Positions 51,989-59,257 of a DNA stretch of 64,000 bases are shown here, in pieces. The notes under the pieces are model-generated. The model searched no databases. It had not been told where the DNA came from and saw only the letters and a list, made by a program, of their open reading frames with translations. The first letter of the stretch is position 1, and the number at the start of each line of letters is the position of its first letter. Source of the DNA: Terriglobia bacterium (GTDB taxonomy: Bacteria; Acidobacteriota; Terriglobia; Terriglobales; Acidobacteriaceae); the NCBI GenBank assembly GCA_020072585.1, contig JAIQGL010000017.1:186001-250000 (forward strand). The letters run 5' to 3'. The position numbers and the translations under genes are program-made.

Positions 51989-52999
51989 CTATTTGGCTGG
52001 TGCCGCATTCTCCGCAAGAGGAGTTGGCACCTTCTTGGTACCTGCCAGTTCAGCCGCAGTCTGCATGATGTTGCGCGTGGAAAAAGGCCGGAAGAATCCC
52101 CAGCAGGTAGCAGTAGGTGGCGCTGGCGCCGCAGGTGGTGTTGTTGCATCCGGACAGTTGCCATACTTCTCTTTCATTTGAGGAAGCACTGCGTCGACCA
52201 ATGCCTGGTCGCTCTTCCCTGCTGCCTGCGCTTTGCTTATGGCTTCGCGCAACGTGACTAAATAATCATGAAAATCGCGCACATCCGCCGCGGTGGCAAC
52301 GTCTCCATGTCCGGAAACGAACGTTCCTGAAGGACGATCGGCCAGCAGCTTCTCCAGCGTCTTCACCCAATCATTGGTGGTGGCGTCAATCAAGTTGGGC
52401 AGGTGCTTCTGCCAGACCAGGTCGCCGGCAAAAACCACGTTGGCATCGGGCACGGTCACCACGGAATCGCCGCCGGTGTGGCCCAGCATGTAGCGAACTT
52501 GAATCTGCCGCGTGCCCAGATAAATATCCACTGCGTCAGTGTAGACTTCATCAGGCAGCACCAGCGCCTCAACCATGGCCTTTTGCTCAGGCTTGGGATT
52601 AGCGCCGAAGAACTTGAGATTTTCTGTGCGCAGCCAGCCACGCAGGTTGTGGTGTGCCACGATGGTTGCTCCCTCCTTGGCAAAAACCGCGTTGCCGCCG
52701 GTGTGGTCCAGGTGGTAGTGCGTATTGATGACAAAGCGCACCGGCAGGTCGGTAACTTTCCTGATTTCAGCTAGCAATGCCCGCGCAGACTCCTGGCTGG
52801 TAAATGTGTCGATCACTACCACGCCGTTGCTGCCAACAACAAATCCCGCGTTGCTTCCGGCTTTGCCGCCATCGGCGCCAATGGCCGCGTAAACGCCCTC
52901 GCCGATTTTCTTTACGGTGAAGTCTGCCGTATCGGCACAAAAAGCAAAGGTCGAAAGAAAAAGAAGAATCAATAGAAGAGGAGCCGTTCTGGTTCGCAT
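51989..52999 (-). CDS. Metallo-beta-lactamase-fold hydrolase, secreted
   Basis: About 336 residues. The ATG at 52999 gives a signal peptide (LLLILLFLSTFAFCA); codons upstream to 53080 are not needed. The metal site is HYHLDHTGG (about 125), with later ligands HTGGD and SGHGD. The arrangement resembles the glyoxalase II/SoxH-like and quinoprotein-relay MBL families rather than clinical beta-lactamases. A Pro-rich tail follows the fold. Operon with the prolyl oligopeptidase. Confidence 0.88.
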   Translation of the reverse strand: MRTRTAPLLLILLFLSTFAFCADTADFTVKKIGEGVYAAIGADGGKAGSNAGFVVGSNGVVVIDTFTSQESARALLAEIRKVTDLPVRFVINTHYHLDHTGGNAVFAKEGATIVAHHNLRGWLRTENLKFFGANPKPEQKAMVEALVLPDEVYTDAVDIYLGTRQIQVRYMLGHTGGDSVVTVPDANVVFAGDLVWQKHLPNLIDATTNDWVKTLEKLLADRPSGTFVSGHGDVATAADVRDFHDYLVTLREAISKAQAAGKSDQALVDAVLPQMKEKYGNCPDATTPPAAPAPPTATCWGFFRPFSTRNIMQTAAELAGTKKVPTPLAENAAPAK

Positions 53000-53234
53000 G
53001 CCGCTGATAGTAACATCAATTCCGGCCATTTCGCTCGTCAGGACGCCACACTCAAAAACAGCCATTTGGGACACCAACAAGCAAATGGCGCTTGACTTTC
53101 ATACCCTCGCCGTCCCAAAACGGATTTGTTACGATGGAGATGGGGGAAGGGCGGCCTGATATTCAGCTGGCAAGACCGGGTTGCAATCCAATTACCTACA
53201 GAATTCGTACTCTTAAGAAAGCGAGAGAATACGC

Positions 53235-53780
53235 GTGAGCGGCACGCAAGCGCCAAAAACTAACGACGACGCTTCCCTGATTGCGTGCATCCGCGCCGGA
53301 GACCAAAGCGCCATGGCCGACTTGTATGACCGCTATTCCGGAGTCGTATACGGAGTCGCCCTGCGCGTACTGGCCAGCACTACCGCAGCGGAGGACGTGG
53401 TGCAGGAAGTGTTCCTTCAGCTATGGCGCAATCCCCGGGCTTTTGACGCTGACCGTGGCCGGCTGGCCCCCTGGCTGGCGGTGATCGCACGCAACCGCGC
53501 TATCGATCTGTTGCGGAAACGGCCCATGGAAGACGATATAGACGAAATGCCCATCTCCACCGGAGTAAACCTGGAAGATGAGGCTTCACAGCGCCTGGCA
53601 GTTGAGAAAGTTCGCGGCGTTCTGGGACAGCTTCCCCAGGACCAGCGCAAAGCCCTGGAGATGGCATTTTTTGAAGGCATGACCCATACGGAGATCGCCG
53701 GAAAAACCGGAGAGCCGCTGGGTACCGTCAAGACCCGCATCCGCACTGGATTGCTGGCCTTGAGAAAAGCATTTGCATGA
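53235..53780 (+). CDS. ECF-type sigma factor (SigK/RpoE-like)
   Basis: 181 residues from a GTG. Region 2: YDRYSGVVYGVALRVLASTTAAEDVVQEVFLQLW; region 4: LPQDQRKALEMAFFEGMTHTEIAGKTGEPLGTVKTRI. It belongs with the sigma factors regulated by RskA-type anti-sigma factors. The stop overlaps the next start (ATGA), so sigma and anti-sigma are made in a fixed ratio. Confidence 0.94.
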   Translation: MSGTQAPKTNDDASLIACIRAGDQSAMADLYDRYSGVVYGVALRVLASTTAAEDVVQEVFLQLWRNPRAFDADRGRLAPWLAVIARNRAIDLLRKRPMEDDIDEMPISTGVNLEDEASQRLAVEKVRGVLGQLPQDQRKALEMAFFEGMTHTEIAGKTGEPLGTVKTRIRTGLLALRKAFA

Positions 53781-54589
53781 ACGATCATCCACAATTCGCT
53801 GAAGCGCTGGCGTTATATGCCATGGGCGCGCTTGACGACCCGCAGGACCTGGCAGCGCTGCAGGCCCATCTGGGCACGTGCGGAGATTGCCGTCGTGAGC
53901 TTGATGCTTTGCGCGCCGATGTGGCGTTGCTGGCGCTTTCCGCTACCGGCCCGCAGCCTCCGGCAAGATCGCGCCAGCGGCTGCTCAGCGCAATTGCCGC
54001 AGAACCGCCGCGTGAGCACAAGGCCCCGCAGCGCTATGCAGTAGGCCGTTTGCGTCCGCGCTGGTTTTCCTTCGCGCCAATCGCGGTAATGCTGCTGCTG
54101 GCGGTTTTCAGTCTGCTGCTGTGGCGTGATGTCCGGAACACGAGATTCCAATTAAGAATGGCCCGCACGCAGATCGAACAGATGCAGGCGGAAGTAGCAG
54201 AGAAAAATGGCGCTCTTGAAGAAGCCAGGAAGATTGGCGATCTGCTGCACGCATCGGACGCGTGGCCGATTACGCTTGTGTCCGTAAAAACTCCGCCGCA
54301 GCCCCAATTGAAGATGATCTACTCGCGCGAAAAGGGCAGCCTGCTGCTGATGGCGAGCAATGCGCCCATGTTGCCGGACGATAAGATCTACGAGCTATGG
54401 CTGCTTCCCGCCGATGGCGGCGCTCCCATGCCTTGTGGCTGGTTCAAACCAGACAAGCAAGGCAATGGGATGATCTTCCATAAGCTGGCATCCGCAGGCA
54501 TTACCGCAAAAGGCTTTGCCGTGACCGCTGAGCCTGCCGGCGGCAGTTTGACTCCCACCATGCCGATCAGGTTTGCTCCTGCGAGTTAG
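53777..54589 (+). CDS. RskA-like anti-sigma factor
   Basis: 270 residues. Zinc-binding anti-sigma N-terminus (HLGTCGDC), a membrane helix at about 95-113 (FAPIAVMLLLAVFSLLLW), a short coiled coil (QIEQMQAEVAEKNGALEEARK) and the RskA C-terminal domain (LPDDKIYELWLLPADGGAPM). It holds the adjacent sigma factor at the inner membrane until released by proteolysis. The 283-base gap after it shows no gene. Confidence 0.93.
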   Translation: MNDHPQFAEALALYAMGALDDPQDLAALQAHLGTCGDCRRELDALRADVALLALSATGPQPPARSRQRLLSAIAAEPPREHKAPQRYAVGRLRPRWFSFAPIAVMLLLAVFSLLLWRDVRNTRFQLRMARTQIEQMQAEVAEKNGALEEARKIGDLLHASDAWPITLVSVKTPPQPQLKMIYSREKGSLLLMASNAPMLPDDKIYELWLLPADGGAPMPCGWFKPDKQGNGMIFHKLASAGITAKGFAVTAEPAGGSLTPTMPIRFAPAS

Positions 54590-54872
54590 CTATCGGGTAT
54601 ATGATCCGTCGTTGAAACTCAAGCATCACTTTGCTTCTCCTGAAACTAAAAGCCTTCCATCCACCGCTGCTCAAACTTGAGGTCTTCAGCCGTCAGTGTC
54701 AATGGAATTCATGATTCGGGTCAGCTGAAATCGCCGCGGGTCGAGTTACCGGATTGAAGCGAATAAAAACGCTTTGTCACGGTTGAAGGGATCATCCCAT
54801 CCCAAATTGGCTCACATTCATACGTATCCAGAGTCAATACCTTGGCTGACCACTGTTTTTCAAGGAGTTCCT

Positions 54873-56738
54873 GTGCAACCCAAATCCCTGACGCTCTACC
54901 GTACGCTGCGCTTTGTTCTTCTGCTATCGATCACGAGTATTTACGCTGTTGCACAGGACGCTTCGTCACAGATCAAGTCAGAGATCGAACGCCTGCAACA
55001 ATCCTTGAAGGACAAACCTGTTTCCAGCCCTGATCTGCCGAACGCCGGCACCATCATTGGTGACGGGCTCAATGGCTCAAGGGCGTCGCTGGCTACGGGA
55101 CATCTTTACCTGAGCCTGGAAAGATTGGGCCAGGCAGAAGACTTTCTGCAAGGCGCACGGAGCGTTGACGAAAAAGCGGAGGCGATCAAGGATAGTCTTC
55201 CCGCGTTTGAAACAGAATGGGGGAAGGCGAACCTGCAATTGACGGCGATGGACAGATCGGCCAGGGAGCGAGATTGGCGCGGCACGACTACAGCGATTCG
55301 AGCACTCTCTGAAACGGCGCAGGGCCGGGTTATTCCGCTACTGGAAGGCAGCCGAGGCTTCGCAACGGCAACCAAACCCAAAGACGGCTTGTTTTATATG
55401 GGACAGGCACAGGGTGAAGCAGCATTTGCCACGTTCGTGTCCAAATTGAACGCACCGCGCACAGGCACACCATTTCCTCTCCGTTCCGTGCTGCCTGAAC
55501 TACAGGCGCTACAGGAAAAGACCAATGCAGCGTTCCAGCCGCCACGGTCTATTGATATGCATCCTCGGTTCATTGCGTTGAATTCCACGCTTAAATTTGC
55601 GCGCGAACTGGATTCATCGAAAGCGTACGCAGGAGCGCTCTATCAGTATCTTGAAGCGGTGCGCCACTATGGCATGCTGGATCCTGCCGTGCCCGACGCC
55701 GCGAAGCAAACTGCGCTGCGCAACACAATTGCCGATGAACTGAAGAAATCCAGCAGCGCCAGGCGCGACGACTCGATTGCCCAAATCTTTCTGGAAAGGG
55801 CCTACGGATGGCTCAATAAGACTGACGGCGCCGCGCCTTCCCCAGATGAATGGCGGAGCGTCCAGATCATTCTGGAGCAGGTATTGCCCGCTTATTACGC
55901 CACGCTCAAGCCCGCAGCTCCATTGCAGCAGCGTGCCGGACGCACGGCAACGCTGACACTTGTCCGCTGGCCCTACACTTGAAACATCTCCGATCCAGCA
56001 AGTTTGCTGGCCCAGGAAGTTGCCGCCAAGTATGCCGGACGCGTAACGTTCGTGAGCGAAAACTTTGGTGATTCAAAACTGGCGGACCGGTTTGGGGTGA
56101 AAGGGTATCCCGCTATATTTCTGGATGAAGTCCTGATTGCGGCGCCGCGGGACTTTGGTTATTTTGGCGAAAAGGAAGGCACCGGACGCTACGCTCCCTG
56201 GCGCAACGCTGACAACCAGGCAAAGTTCAAGACTGATCTTACCCGGATGATCGACCTGATACTTGCCGGCAAGAAAGATGTGGTCAGCCGGGAACACGCC
56301 GGAACAAGTACAAGCCTGGCGGCTGTTACTTCCCTGCCTAAATTCAAATTGACTGACCTTTCCGGCAAGCCGCTTACTGCGGAGCAGGCCTCCGGCCGGG
56401 TGGTGATGGTGGAGTTCTGGGCCACATGGTGTCCGCCCTGCCGCTCGACGCTGGAATGGCTCGGCGATCTAAAGAAAAAATATGGCGACAACATCGCCAT
56501 TCTGGCGCTGGCCGTGGAGTCACCGGAAGACAAAGTCAGGGAGACAGTCAGCTCGCTCAGCCCTGATCTCCACTGGGCCATCACAGATGCGGCCACCGCT
56601 CAGGCCTTCGGCGATATCACTGCCGTCCCAACCATGTTTCTGTTTGACCGCTCCGGTAAAACCGCGAGCGTGATGTATGGTGCGCCACCTGACCTGCACC
56701 AGCAGGCGGAGAAGGTGCTGGACGGATTGATCAAGTAA
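54873..56738 (+). CDS. Candidate selenoprotein: secreted double thioredoxin-fold protein with in-frame UGA
   Basis: Read through the TGA at 55980-55982, this is one protein of 621 residues with Sec at 370. The GTG at 54873 has AAGGAG 5 bases upstream and gives a signal peptide (FVLLLSITSIYAVAQ). Residues 30-350 are helical, of no family I know. Residues about 358-470 are a thioredoxin-like domain: strand TLTLVRWPYT, then UGA, NISDPASLLAQEVA helix, strand RVTFVSEN, and the cis-Pro loop VKGYPAIFL. The UGA is exactly where the catalytic Cys would be. Residues 485-621 are a TlpA/AhpC-like domain with WCPPC (520, 523). Without recoding, the second half would start at a TTG with no ribosome site. 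Probably an extracytoplasmic disulfide or peroxide reductase. The alternative is an ordinary nonsense mutation. Confidence 0.78.
55989..56017 (+). promoter_or_regulatory. Bacterial SECIS-like hairpin after the in-frame UGA
   Basis: CCAGCA (55995-56000) and TGCTGG (56005-56010) pair perfectly around the loop AGTT (56001-56004); a lower UCC/GGA helix (55989-55991 with 56015-56017) continues the stem after a small internal loop. The loop begins 18 bases after the UGA and its second base is G. Both match the published bacterial SECIS consensus (loop 16-37 bases from UGA, G in the first two loop positions), the site where SelB binds. Confidence 0.75.
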
Positions 56739-56747
56739 CCCATTTAT

Positions 56748-56872
56748 CACGAAGGACACAAAGGAACACGAAGGCAGTTCTGGTTAAAGATTTGAGGCAA
56801 CGTTAAGCCCGCTATCACCCTCAGTTGCCAGCTATCCTATGTCCCCTTTGTGTTCCTTCGCGGACTGTGTGG
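56748..56872. repeat. Intergenic inverted repeat of the 'cacgaaggacacaaagg' type
   Basis: A left arm (56748-56774, CACGAAGGACACAAAGG and on) faces a right arm (56843-56872) whose reverse complement reads CGCGAAGGAACACAAAGG. Such arms form a large imperfect hairpin. Similar phrases occur as scattered intergenic repeats in many environmental bacterial genomes. Between the arms I see no gene. Confidence 0.55.
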
Positions 56873-57573: not shown

Positions 57574-58236
57574 ATGCAAGCGACCAATGATCCTCAAATC
57601 CGCGAACTGTTGCTTCCCTTTGTTCGCAACGAGCATGGCACTTCAGAGACAATATACATTGAAGAATTTGCCCTCTATGGTGGGGCCAACAGGGCAGACC
57701 TTGCAGCCCTGAATGGAGTCTCTCACGGCTATGAAATTAAAAGTGATAAAGACACGCTTCTTCGCCTCCCGCAACAGGTGGATGCCTATAATGCAGTGTT
57801 TGAAAGAGCAACATTAGTCAGCGGAGTCCGGCATCTCTCGGCGGCGCTAAACATGATCCCCAGATGGTGGGGCGTTGTGGAAGTACGTAGCCACCAAGAT
57901 TCCACTGTTTTCTTGGAGCGAGTACGTGAGTCAAGGCCCAACCCAGAACCACACGGGGAAGCTATAGCTTCCCTCCTGTGGCGACCCGAAGCTCTTCATA
58001 TTCTGACAAGTCTCGGTCTTGACAAAGGTGTCCGATCTAAGCCAATGGAACACTTGATTGCGCGCCTCGCAGCAGAACTATCGCCTGAAAAACTGTCGCG
58101 CATTGTTCGCGAAACCCTACGCGCTAGGGGAGATTGGCGAGCTGCTGCACGACTACGGCGATATGATGCGAAGTCCCCACGGCTCTCCAATCAGTCGCGC
58201 TCCCAACGCATTTTTGCTGAGAACACTGGTCTATAA
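57574..58236 (+). CDS. sce7726-family protein (PD-(D/E)XK nuclease-like)
   Basis: About 220 residues from the ATG at 57574, with GGAG 11 bases upstream. The pattern IYIEEFALYGGANRADLAAL, then NGVSHGYEIKSDKDTLLRLP fits the sce7726 family, and the Glu...Asp...Glu-x-Lys order (EEFAL, RADLAAL, YEIKSD) matches the PD-(D/E)XK nuclease core. The later part (IASLLWRPEALHILTSLGL, GVRSKPMEHL, IVRETLRARGDWR) is also family-typical. Family members usually sit beside beta/sce7725-type genes, as here, where the beta-family gene is convergent and overlaps it by 113 bases. Function unknown; a defence or toxin role is inference. Confidence 0.8.
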   Translation: MQATNDPQIRELLLPFVRNEHGTSETIYIEEFALYGGANRADLAALNGVSHGYEIKSDKDTLLRLPQQVDAYNAVFERATLVSGVRHLSAALNMIPRWWGVVEVRSHQDSTVFLERVRESRPNPEPHGEAIASLLWRPEALHILTSLGLDKGVRSKPMEHLIARLAAELSPEKLSRIVRETLRARGDWRAAARLRRYDAKSPRLSNQSRSQRIFAENTGL

Positions 58237-59257
58237 ATTTGTCACCCCAGCTATATTGTGGCCCTTTCCAGCTTGAATGGCCTTTCACCATCGTTGCCAA
58301 TTTGGGATATTGCACCGATGGTGCCAGTTGCTCTCTGATTGCTTTTTTCTCGGCTGTTTTCGCCCATTTCTTGCGTGGCTGCGCTTGGCCTTTTGCGACG
58401 ACATAATTGAGACTATCCGTGTAGCGGATATTGGGACTCATGTTCATCATTCTTGGATCTAAATCCCCAGCAAGAACGGGATGATTGATAGCGTAATCCG
58501 CAAAGGTCGGCACCCTCTTATTCATGCTCTTTTGCTTTGACCGGACAAACAGCCATGCTAGCCAATCCTCACGATCCAACTCGTCAATTTTGTTTTTCCC
58601 CACCTCGCTCATGTCTTGAGGGAATGATGACGATGCGACTGTTAATGTTCGCCACTCAGCCAATCGCGGCAGTGCATCAATCAAAAATGGGAAAAATGCC
58701 TTGGATGGTACCTTTGCACGAAAATCCACAAGCAAATCGATACTATCTGGTTTGGCATTCAGCATCGCGAGAAGTGAGTCGATTTGAGCGCCCAACTCCG
58801 CGATACCTTCAAGATCAGCCTCTAGAAGCCGAAGACAACAACCGCGCCCGTCTGTTTCGATAGCATTTTTTACGGAATCGGCATAGTCTTCCACTCGATC
58901 CAGGCCAACAGTGGGGATGAAAGACACGTTGCCTTTCCGCAACGCTACAAAAAGAGAATCCACTGGCGATATTCCATCTTTTAGGTCGTCCTCGGTTTCG
59001 ATATAAACGGCATCTACGAAAACTGAGGGAAGCGCTGCAAGAACTTTGACAAAGTTGGCACTCACGTCCTTGACGTGCTTGTCTATGGTCTTTGCCAAAA
59101 CTGGAGGACCGTCCTCTGGATAGGCTTTCGGTATCGGGGGAACCTCAATAAGAGGTGTAAATTTTTTGAACAGCTTGGCGTCGGTGTTTTTTAGAGCGTT
59201 TAATTCGCCCTGCTTGCCTTTGAGAATTGGCACATAGTGAGAATGGTCAAACTTCAT
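58124..59257 (-). CDS. Beta-family protein (phage T4 beta-like, PF14350 type)
   Basis: 377 residues. The opening KFDHSHYVPILKGKQGELNA and FKKFTPLIEVPPIP is typical of beta-family proteins, cytoplasmic proteins named after a phage T4 product and often found next to sce7726 genes. The middle shows an alternating alpha/beta pattern, possibly a TIM-barrel-like fold (VDAVYIETEDDLKDGISPVDSLFVALRKG). No ribosome site is evident. Its 3' end overlaps the convergent sce7726 gene by 113 bases, so antisense interference between the two transcripts is likely. Role unknown. Confidence 0.75.
   Translation of the reverse strand: MKFDHSHYVPILKGKQGELNALKNTDAKLFKKFTPLIEVPPIPKAYPEDGPPVLAKTIDKHVKDVSANFVKVLAALPSVFVDAVYIETEDDLKDGISPVDSLFVALRKGNVSFIPTVGLDRVEDYADSVKNAIETDGRGCCLRLLEADLEGIAELGAQIDSLLAMLNAKPDSIDLLVDFRAKVPSKAFFPFLIDALPRLAEWRTLTVASSSFPQDMSEVGKNKIDELDREDWLAWLFVRSKQKSMNKRVPTFADYAINHPVLAGDLDPRMMNMSPNIRYTDSLNYVVAKGQAQPRKKWAKTAEKKAIREQLAPSVQYPKLATMVKGHSSWKGPQYSWGDKFIDQCSQQKCVGSATDWRAVGTSHHIAVVVQQLANLP

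Follow-up and report, generated by a model that had tools for sequence, protein, structure and literature searches.

A probable exported selenoprotein of Acidobacteriota and Planctomycetota: a thioredoxin-fold domain with an in-frame UGA and a bacterial SECIS-type hairpin

The gene and its features

The DNA described here is a 64,000-nucleotide stretch of contig JAIQGL010000017.1 from a Terriglobia bacterium (Acidobacteriota), referred to below as the window. On its forward strand lie two open reading frames that share one phase and are separated solely by a TGA at 55980-55982. Read through, they make a single frame from 54873 to 56738 with one in-frame TGA, at codon 370 of 621. The original prediction had recognized two same-phase frames split by one TGA, and that part stands. 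The second frame, 56004-56738, does not hold as a unit: it is the open reading frame that mechanically follows a stop, and the conserved protein runs through the position unbroken. By eye, we see no ribosome-binding site before the TTG at 56004, in agreement with the earlier statement that the downstream half has none of its own. The features of the locus are:

54862-54867, plus strand: Shine-Dalgarno-like AAGGAG, read in the sequence, 5 nt 5' of the GTG start at 54873
54873-56738, plus strand: probable selenoprotein gene that opens with GTG and closes with TAA, encoding 621 residues if the TGA is counted as selenocysteine (Sec), from the reading frame and homologues
54873-54953, plus strand: signal-peptide-like N-terminus, residues 1-27, judged by eye (hydrophobic, ending near AVAQD); homologues have similar N-termini, and split forms have separate ones
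54960-55901, plus strand: predicted all-helical N-terminal domain, residues about 30-343, from AlphaFold, split forms and no Pfam family at cut-off
55947-56264, plus strand: predicted Sec-thioredoxin domain, residues about 359-464, from AlphaFold, conservation in 41 rows and a weak profile match to the C-terminal thioredoxin domain
55980-55982, plus strand: putative Sec-encoding TGA, residue 370, with TGA in 42 of 43 distinct sequences at this column and TGC in one
55995-56010, plus strand: putative bacterial SECIS hairpin CCAGCA-AGTT-TGCTGG, with its loop 18 nt 3' of the UGA
56331-56735, plus strand: C-terminal ResA/TlpA-like thioredoxin domain with CPPC at 56430-56441, from Pfam (Redoxin, AhpC-TSA, Thioredoxin) and ResA/DsbE structures in Foldseek

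Homologues and conservation of the UGA codon

A search of 150 related genomes gave seven full-length homologues, our own included, the other six being 37-80% identical to the window protein. Each of the seven has exactly one internal TGA, always in the column of residue 370. We then have two wider samples. A collection of species genomes was scanned with patterns that allow any codon at position 370; of the 44 stretches that matched, 27 encode a relative, in Acidobacteriota, Planctomycetota and one Armatimonadetes metagenome-assembled genome (MAG). A phylum sample of 396 genomes, with up to four candidates scored per genome, gave 17 matches, or 16 once a match that on reading proved to be a DsbA-like protein without the motif (G492) had been dropped. 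Several carrier genomes recur between the searches, and identical stretches were removed before counting.

After this removal, 40 of 41 loci have TGA at the column and one, from the Armatimonadetes MAG (L071), has TGC, which makes a Sec/Cys pair. Two further TGA sequences, one cut by a contig end (L056) and L123, bring the column to 42 TGA and one TGC among 43 distinct homologous sequences, near-copies included (in the 45 nt that follow the TGA, 40 sequences give 39 different versions). The search for homologues with cysteine at residue 370, which the original prediction had called for, thus yielded a single Cys form, and the conservation of TGA in 42 sequences rules out the sequencing error (a TGC, TGT or sense codon misread) that it had named as a danger. 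The genome of this sole Cys form still holds selA.

Searches with the Sec domain found the family in 1 of 201 genomes of an Armatimonadota sample (L071 itself, beside three weak unrelated matches), in 2 of 294 of a Planctomycetota sample (both TGA) and in 9 of 399 of a sample of our own class (all TGA). Weak matches in G618, G665 and G739 and at a second place in G360 were other thioredoxin-like or DsbA-like proteins without the motif, and one candidate from the 150 related genomes (L020) matches just residues 427-619 and has its TGA elsewhere. Viral contigs, scanned with one exact degenerate pattern, gave no match. Carriers are sparse even among close relatives, with 3 of the 9 same-genus genomes among the 150 related ones holding the gene. 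In a tree of the 41 rows the Cys member nests among Sec members on a very long branch (2.12). From these sequences, the placement suggests that the Cys form derived from a Sec form; because the branch is so long, the order is no more than suggested.

Both sides of the TGA appear to be under purifying selection. Between the window and L014, dN and dS were 0.203 and 2.48 in the N-terminal part, 0.021 and 1.36 in the Sec domain, and 0.062 and 1.40 in the C-terminal part. Over 24 comparisons (eight pairs by three regions), dN was below dS in all 22 that could be computed, the remaining two giving no dS and many dS values being near saturation. The least clear case is the N-terminal part of the window against L018 (0.973 and 1.63).

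A bacterial SECIS-type hairpin

The predicted hairpin consists of a stem CCAGCA (55995-56000), a loop AGTT (56001-56004) and a stem TGCTGG (56005-56010). The stem pairs perfectly over 6 bp and begins 12 nt from the UGA, with the loop at 18 nt, so the 6-bp stem and AGUU loop originally reported are exact in the sequence. The published bacterial SECIS rule places the loop 16-37 nt after the UGA, with 3-9 nt and a G within its first two positions, above an upper stem of 4-16 bp and with an energy of at most -7.5 kcal/mol; the review's model also expects the two loop-end bases to pair (PMC13188914). Applied by hand, this rule accommodates the window hairpin, as first proposed; the 48 nt that follow the UGA, with the hairpin in the fold, reach -12.6 kcal/mol.

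The same geometry recurs across the family. All 40 TGA loci have an AGUU or GGUC loop at 18 nt, with six stem pairs possible in 37 and five in 3. The energy over the 48 nt after the UGA is -7.5 kcal/mol or lower in 39 of the 40, the exception (L089) standing at -7.1. In the minimum-energy fold of these 48 nt the hairpin forms with at least five pairs in 28 loci, with the inner four pairs alone in 5, and is absent in 7. Where the loop is GGUC (16/40), the 10-mer GCAGGTCTGC lies at offset 18 from the T of the TGA.

Stem formation alone was rejected as proof of a SECIS element. When synonymous codons were resampled, at least five pairs formed in 3-61% of draws depending on the gene; pairing by itself is weak evidence, because the peptide D-P-A-S/G-L-L comes close to dictating the stem. 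The case is instead one of frozen codons, covarying loop ends and a hairpin that the Cys form has lost. Among 118 columns with four- or six-fold degenerate codons, the median share of the top codon is 0.55, and the only fully invariant codons are GCA at +6 (40/40), AGT at +7 (24/24 with Ser) and CTG at +9 (40/40). GCA makes up about 2-23% of the Ala codons in the homologue genes, yet is fixed at +6. When six-codon windows of the alignment of seven members are ranked by codon identity, the one at +6 comes first of 491.

The loop ends covary between A-U (24) and G-C (16) over the 40 loci, or 24 and 14 over 38 distinct rows. Against 500 shuffles, which leave the relatedness of the sequences in, three of five covariation measures exceed every shuffle; the pair-count and pair-type measures, which were reached by 499 and 500 of the 500, fail because the signal comes from one pair of columns. 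In the Cys homologue the residues DPASLL are retained, with the codons CCC GCG AGC CTG CTT for the last five. Its stem is broken, with a hairpin energy of -1.1 kcal/mol, whereas TGA members range from -5.4 to -7.9, the comparison being with one Cys sequence.

An apparent freeze of codons upstream of the TGA (Tyr TAC and Thr ACT, seen in seven members) was also considered and fails over the 40 TGA loci, with ACT in 11.

Selenocysteine machinery in carrier genomes

The genome to which the window belongs (6.9 Mb, 96.8% complete) contains the genes that the original prediction had asked for, selA, selB, selC and selD. The scores were 542.7 bits for selA, 385.2 for selB, 371.5 for selD and 73.9 for tRNA-Sec, and ARAGORN calls the last as tRNA-SeC with anticodon TCA.

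Beyond this genome, selA alone was looked for. It lies over the cut-off in 250 of the 396 genomes of the phylum sample, comprising 16 of 16 carriers and 234 of the 380 others (hypergeometric p 5e-4, a rough figure since the genomes are related); in three carriers (G287, G423 and G484) it was judged from E-values. The 27 genomes with loci from the species scan include 24 with selA over the cut-off, that of the Cys form among them. One genome (G534) has two sub-threshold selA fragments at contig ends. Two others (G544 and G554) have the TGA gene, and selA was not found in their assemblies, which may be incomplete.

The selD gene of our own genome (L010, G000:C72:81590-82516) itself has a single TGA in frame, close to the start, and a hairpin is predicted downstream of that codon. 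By its sequence, selD is likely to be a second selenoprotein gene of this genome.

Protein architecture

The full-length AlphaFold model (mean pLDDT 88.1, pTM 0.77) consists of essentially helices over residues 30-343, a domain in thioredoxin order over 359-464, and then a second thioredoxin domain. A two-domain model agrees with it, with pLDDT of 71-74 around Sec (71-88 over both models). The Sec domain is predicted to follow the order beta-alpha-beta-alpha-beta-beta-alpha with the redox residue before the first helix. Residue 370 follows the first strand and precedes the first long helix by three residues, and Tyr-Pro at 412-413 stands where thioredoxin has its cis-Pro loop, the cis assignment being by position and not by geometry. 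The models thus bear out the earlier claim that the TGA occupies the active-site position of one continuous thioredoxin-like domain.

The Sec domain has the motif LVRWPYT-U-N-I-S-DPASLL. Of the 40 TGA rows, 38 have Ser at Sec +3 (U-x-x-S) and two have Cys there (U-x-x-C), both from the G119/G126 lineage, which reads U-H-L-C. A C-x-x-C motif (CPPC, CLPC, CGPC, CVPC or CPMC) follows 137-154 residues after Sec in all 41 rows.

Known families cover only the last part of the protein. Pfam has no match at cut-off in the window protein until residue 487, beyond which the thioredoxin superfamily matches. At cut-off, neither Pfam nor NCBIfam models cover the helical and Sec domains. In NCBIfam release 20.0, all 17 matches of the window protein are below cut-off; 16 lie in the C-terminal domain, and in the other a model for protein disulfide oxidoreductases matches residues 369-418, in the Sec domain, below threshold (11.5 bits). 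The other six first members were judged against NCBIfam on E-values alone. With both models, the Foldseek matches listed belong to the thioredoxin superfamily alone (ResA, DsbE, TlpA, CcmG, Sco and the like). We take them to concern the CPPC domain; the output gives no aligned ranges. The helical domain is unmatched among the 50 matches listed. A profile search of PDB sequences with the Sec domain gave weak matches only, the best being a thioredoxin (E 0.015). The C-terminal domain is a CxxC thioredoxin domain with ResA-like structure that scores below the cut-off of the ResA model.

In seven relatives (L074, L076, L077, L088, L089, L091 and L092) the helical domain is a separate, adjacent gene. 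The break comes before the Sec domain, and the second gene contains the TGA and has, by eye, a signal-like N-terminus of its own. Since the TGA stays inside the second gene in these split forms, it does not sit at a gene boundary.

Genomic neighborhood

Neighboring open reading frames were picked by codon scoring. Over the 42 loci, no gene family keeps one position from clade to clade. The largest mixed neighbor cluster has members at 15 of the 42 loci, in scattered places, and near relatives share some neighbors (the window with L104 and L105; L058 with L059 and L062).

Directly upstream of the gene in the window, at 53235-54589, are an ECF sigma factor and then an RskA-type anti-sigma factor. 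The pair occupies the same place in the same-genus carriers L104 and L105, and in none of the remaining loci among the 42 compared. Just 3' of the gene, an intergenic imperfect inverted repeat (56748-56871) has 27-nt arms that are 74% complementary; its core, CACGAAGGACACAAAGG, occurs once in the window. Further downstream, on the minus strand at 58124-59257, a gene that matches the Pfam family 'Beta protein' strongly (209 bits) lies beside an open reading frame without a family.

An unfused metallo-beta-lactamase gene is found upstream in the window, at 51989-53080. In L092/L116 (L116:6447-8564, G156), a single gene encodes a metallo-beta-lactamase domain followed by the helical domain, beside a separate Sec-thioredoxin gene. 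We regard a connection between metallo-beta-lactamases and the family as a lead only.

Alternative readings of the in-frame UGA

On these sequence data, the UGA at codon 370 is almost certainly read as Sec, and the gene very probably encodes a selenoprotein, itself probably exported, in which the UGA is kept together with a bacterial SECIS hairpin. The selenoprotein that had been predicted as probable is in this way supported: the Sec genes are present in its genome, the homologous column holds Sec or Cys codons, and the TGA is no sequencing error.

Other readings of the TGA would have to explain the same pattern. Were it a real stop between two separate genes, the downstream part would start by coupling at an internal TTG or GTG; there is a TTG at 56004, and termination at a part of the UGAs would be compatible with our data. 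Yet the motif on the two sides of the TGA forms one conserved block inside one predicted domain, a homologue reads Cys through the position in an uninterrupted frame, and in the seven split forms the break precedes the Sec domain and leaves the TGA inside the second gene. Together with the lack of a ribosome site seen by eye before 56004, this makes a pair of genes very improbable. A pseudogene or a sequencing error would look much the same in a single gene with one in-frame stop, but it would hardly leave the same TGA in 42 distinct sequences with dN below dS on both sides, and we consider it barely credible. Equally far-fetched is the idea that TGA has become a sense codon throughout the genome, for which we found no supporting point: four of the first seven genes (L016-L019) end in TGA, which is a normal stop there, and the sole homologue without the TGA lacks the hairpin.

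A different question is what a Sec protein of this kind would do. The Sec domain might be a selenium-dependent peroxidase, or an envelope enzyme that oxidizes in the manner of DsbA/DsbG; the CPPC domain would then regenerate or resolve it. Among the entries of the catalogue in PMC13188914 are peroxiredoxin-like and arsenate-reductase selenoproteins with U-x-x-S, as in most members here. At cut-off, however, no peroxiredoxin or glutathione peroxidase model matches the Sec domain of the window protein, and AhpC-TSA and Redoxin match its residues 487-614 only. We see such a role, above all that of a peroxidase, as a serious alternative, if somewhat less likely than not.

A proposed relay from selenium to the CPPC domain

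The reading we favor, and hold tentatively at close to even chances, is a relay from Sec to the CPPC domain, its biochemical role being drawn from position, fold and established pathways. SelB carrying Sec-tRNA would bind the hairpin and insert Sec, as in the established pathway. Judging from its position and the fold, Sec would be the attacking, N-terminal redox residue of the thioredoxin-fold domain. After export, this domain may attack a disulfide, sulfenate or peroxide on a substrate, which the helical domain may hold, or near which the substrate may sit; the helical domain might also hold a partner. The CPPC domain would then reduce the oxidized selenium in cis, and could be recharged by a membrane transporter of the DsbD/CcdA type. 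Because most members are without the second residue of a U-x-x-C pair, the neighboring CPPC domain is the natural resolving partner. The transporter domain DsbD_TM was found in all 28 carrier genomes tested (28 of the 52 carrier handles known at the time, some from the same genome); it discriminates little, because 10 of 14 controls have it too. The lack of a recurrent neighbor in a constant position across clades also counts against the relay.

Taken as a whole, the family may, with much the same reserve, be a sparse class of exported selenoenzymes in Acidobacteriota, Planctomycetota and one member of the Armatimonadota. Sec would be almost obligatory in this class, with an intramolecular relay from a Sec-thioredoxin to a CPPC-thioredoxin domain, and a helical domain that presents the substrate and is a separate secreted partner in some relatives.

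Comparison with known selenoproteins

The type case of the bacterial SECIS element, E. coli fdhF, likewise has an in-frame UGA with a hairpin directly downstream, a loop 18 nt from the UGA and Sec machinery in its genome. It shares with the GGUC form of the present family the 10-mer GCAGGTCTGC and its spacing; in family searches, however, the window protein has no resemblance to formate dehydrogenase.

Closer in fold are the Sec-containing thioredoxin-fold oxidoreductases listed in Table 1 of PMC13188914 (thioredoxin, thiol:disulfide interchange protein PF13098, peroxiredoxin-like proteins and Redoxin PF08534), which also have Sec at the N-terminal redox position. The difference is that PF08534, PF13098 and PF00085 match only the CPPC domain of the window protein. 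The Redoxin entry of that table (PF08534, UxxC) appears to differ in that here PF08534 covers the CPPC domain only. Similarly, ResA, TlpA and DsbE resemble one part of the protein: the C-terminal domain matches the ResA model over residues 485-604 with 63.3 bits, and ResA and DsbE head the Foldseek lists. That domain is, however, one of three in a predicted selenoprotein, and its score is below the curated cut-off of the ResA model (170 bits). The NCBIfam family NF041054 (WAxxUGC_long) has a ResA-like domain too and, going by its name, includes selenoproteins; it matches the CPPC domain of the window protein at 26.8 bits against a cut-off of 300, whereas the Sec of the window protein is in another domain.

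The 2026 table of 119 prokaryotic selenoprotein families and subfamilies (PMC13188914, Table 1), in the portion at hand, has no entry with this architecture or motif, and the fusion of a helical domain, a Sec-thioredoxin and a second thioredoxin is absent from that portion. The arrangement had been unfamiliar from the start, and this impression has been confirmed as far as the accessible part of the table and the Pfam and NCBIfam models over the helical and Sec domains extend. Further selenoprotein literature was compared (PMC5029168, PMC2398784 and the deep-Sep paper PMC12013277, each in part), and no description of the motif, or of such a protein in Acidobacteria, was found in the open-access literature searched. 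By sequence, this looks like a selenoprotein family that is missing from the catalogue consulted.

Significance

With this finding the prokaryotic selenoproteome would gain a well-supported family, with a domain arrangement and two domains that Pfam and NCBIfam do not cover at cut-off. Genes of this kind would be split by any annotation that treats the UGA as a stop. If the reading is correct, a family with one fast-diverged Cys relative among 43 sequences would also lie in a blind spot of search methods based on Cys/Sec pairs. For the organisms themselves, the implication is that selenium goes, in some Acidobacteriota and Planctomycetota, into a redox enzyme that is probably exported.
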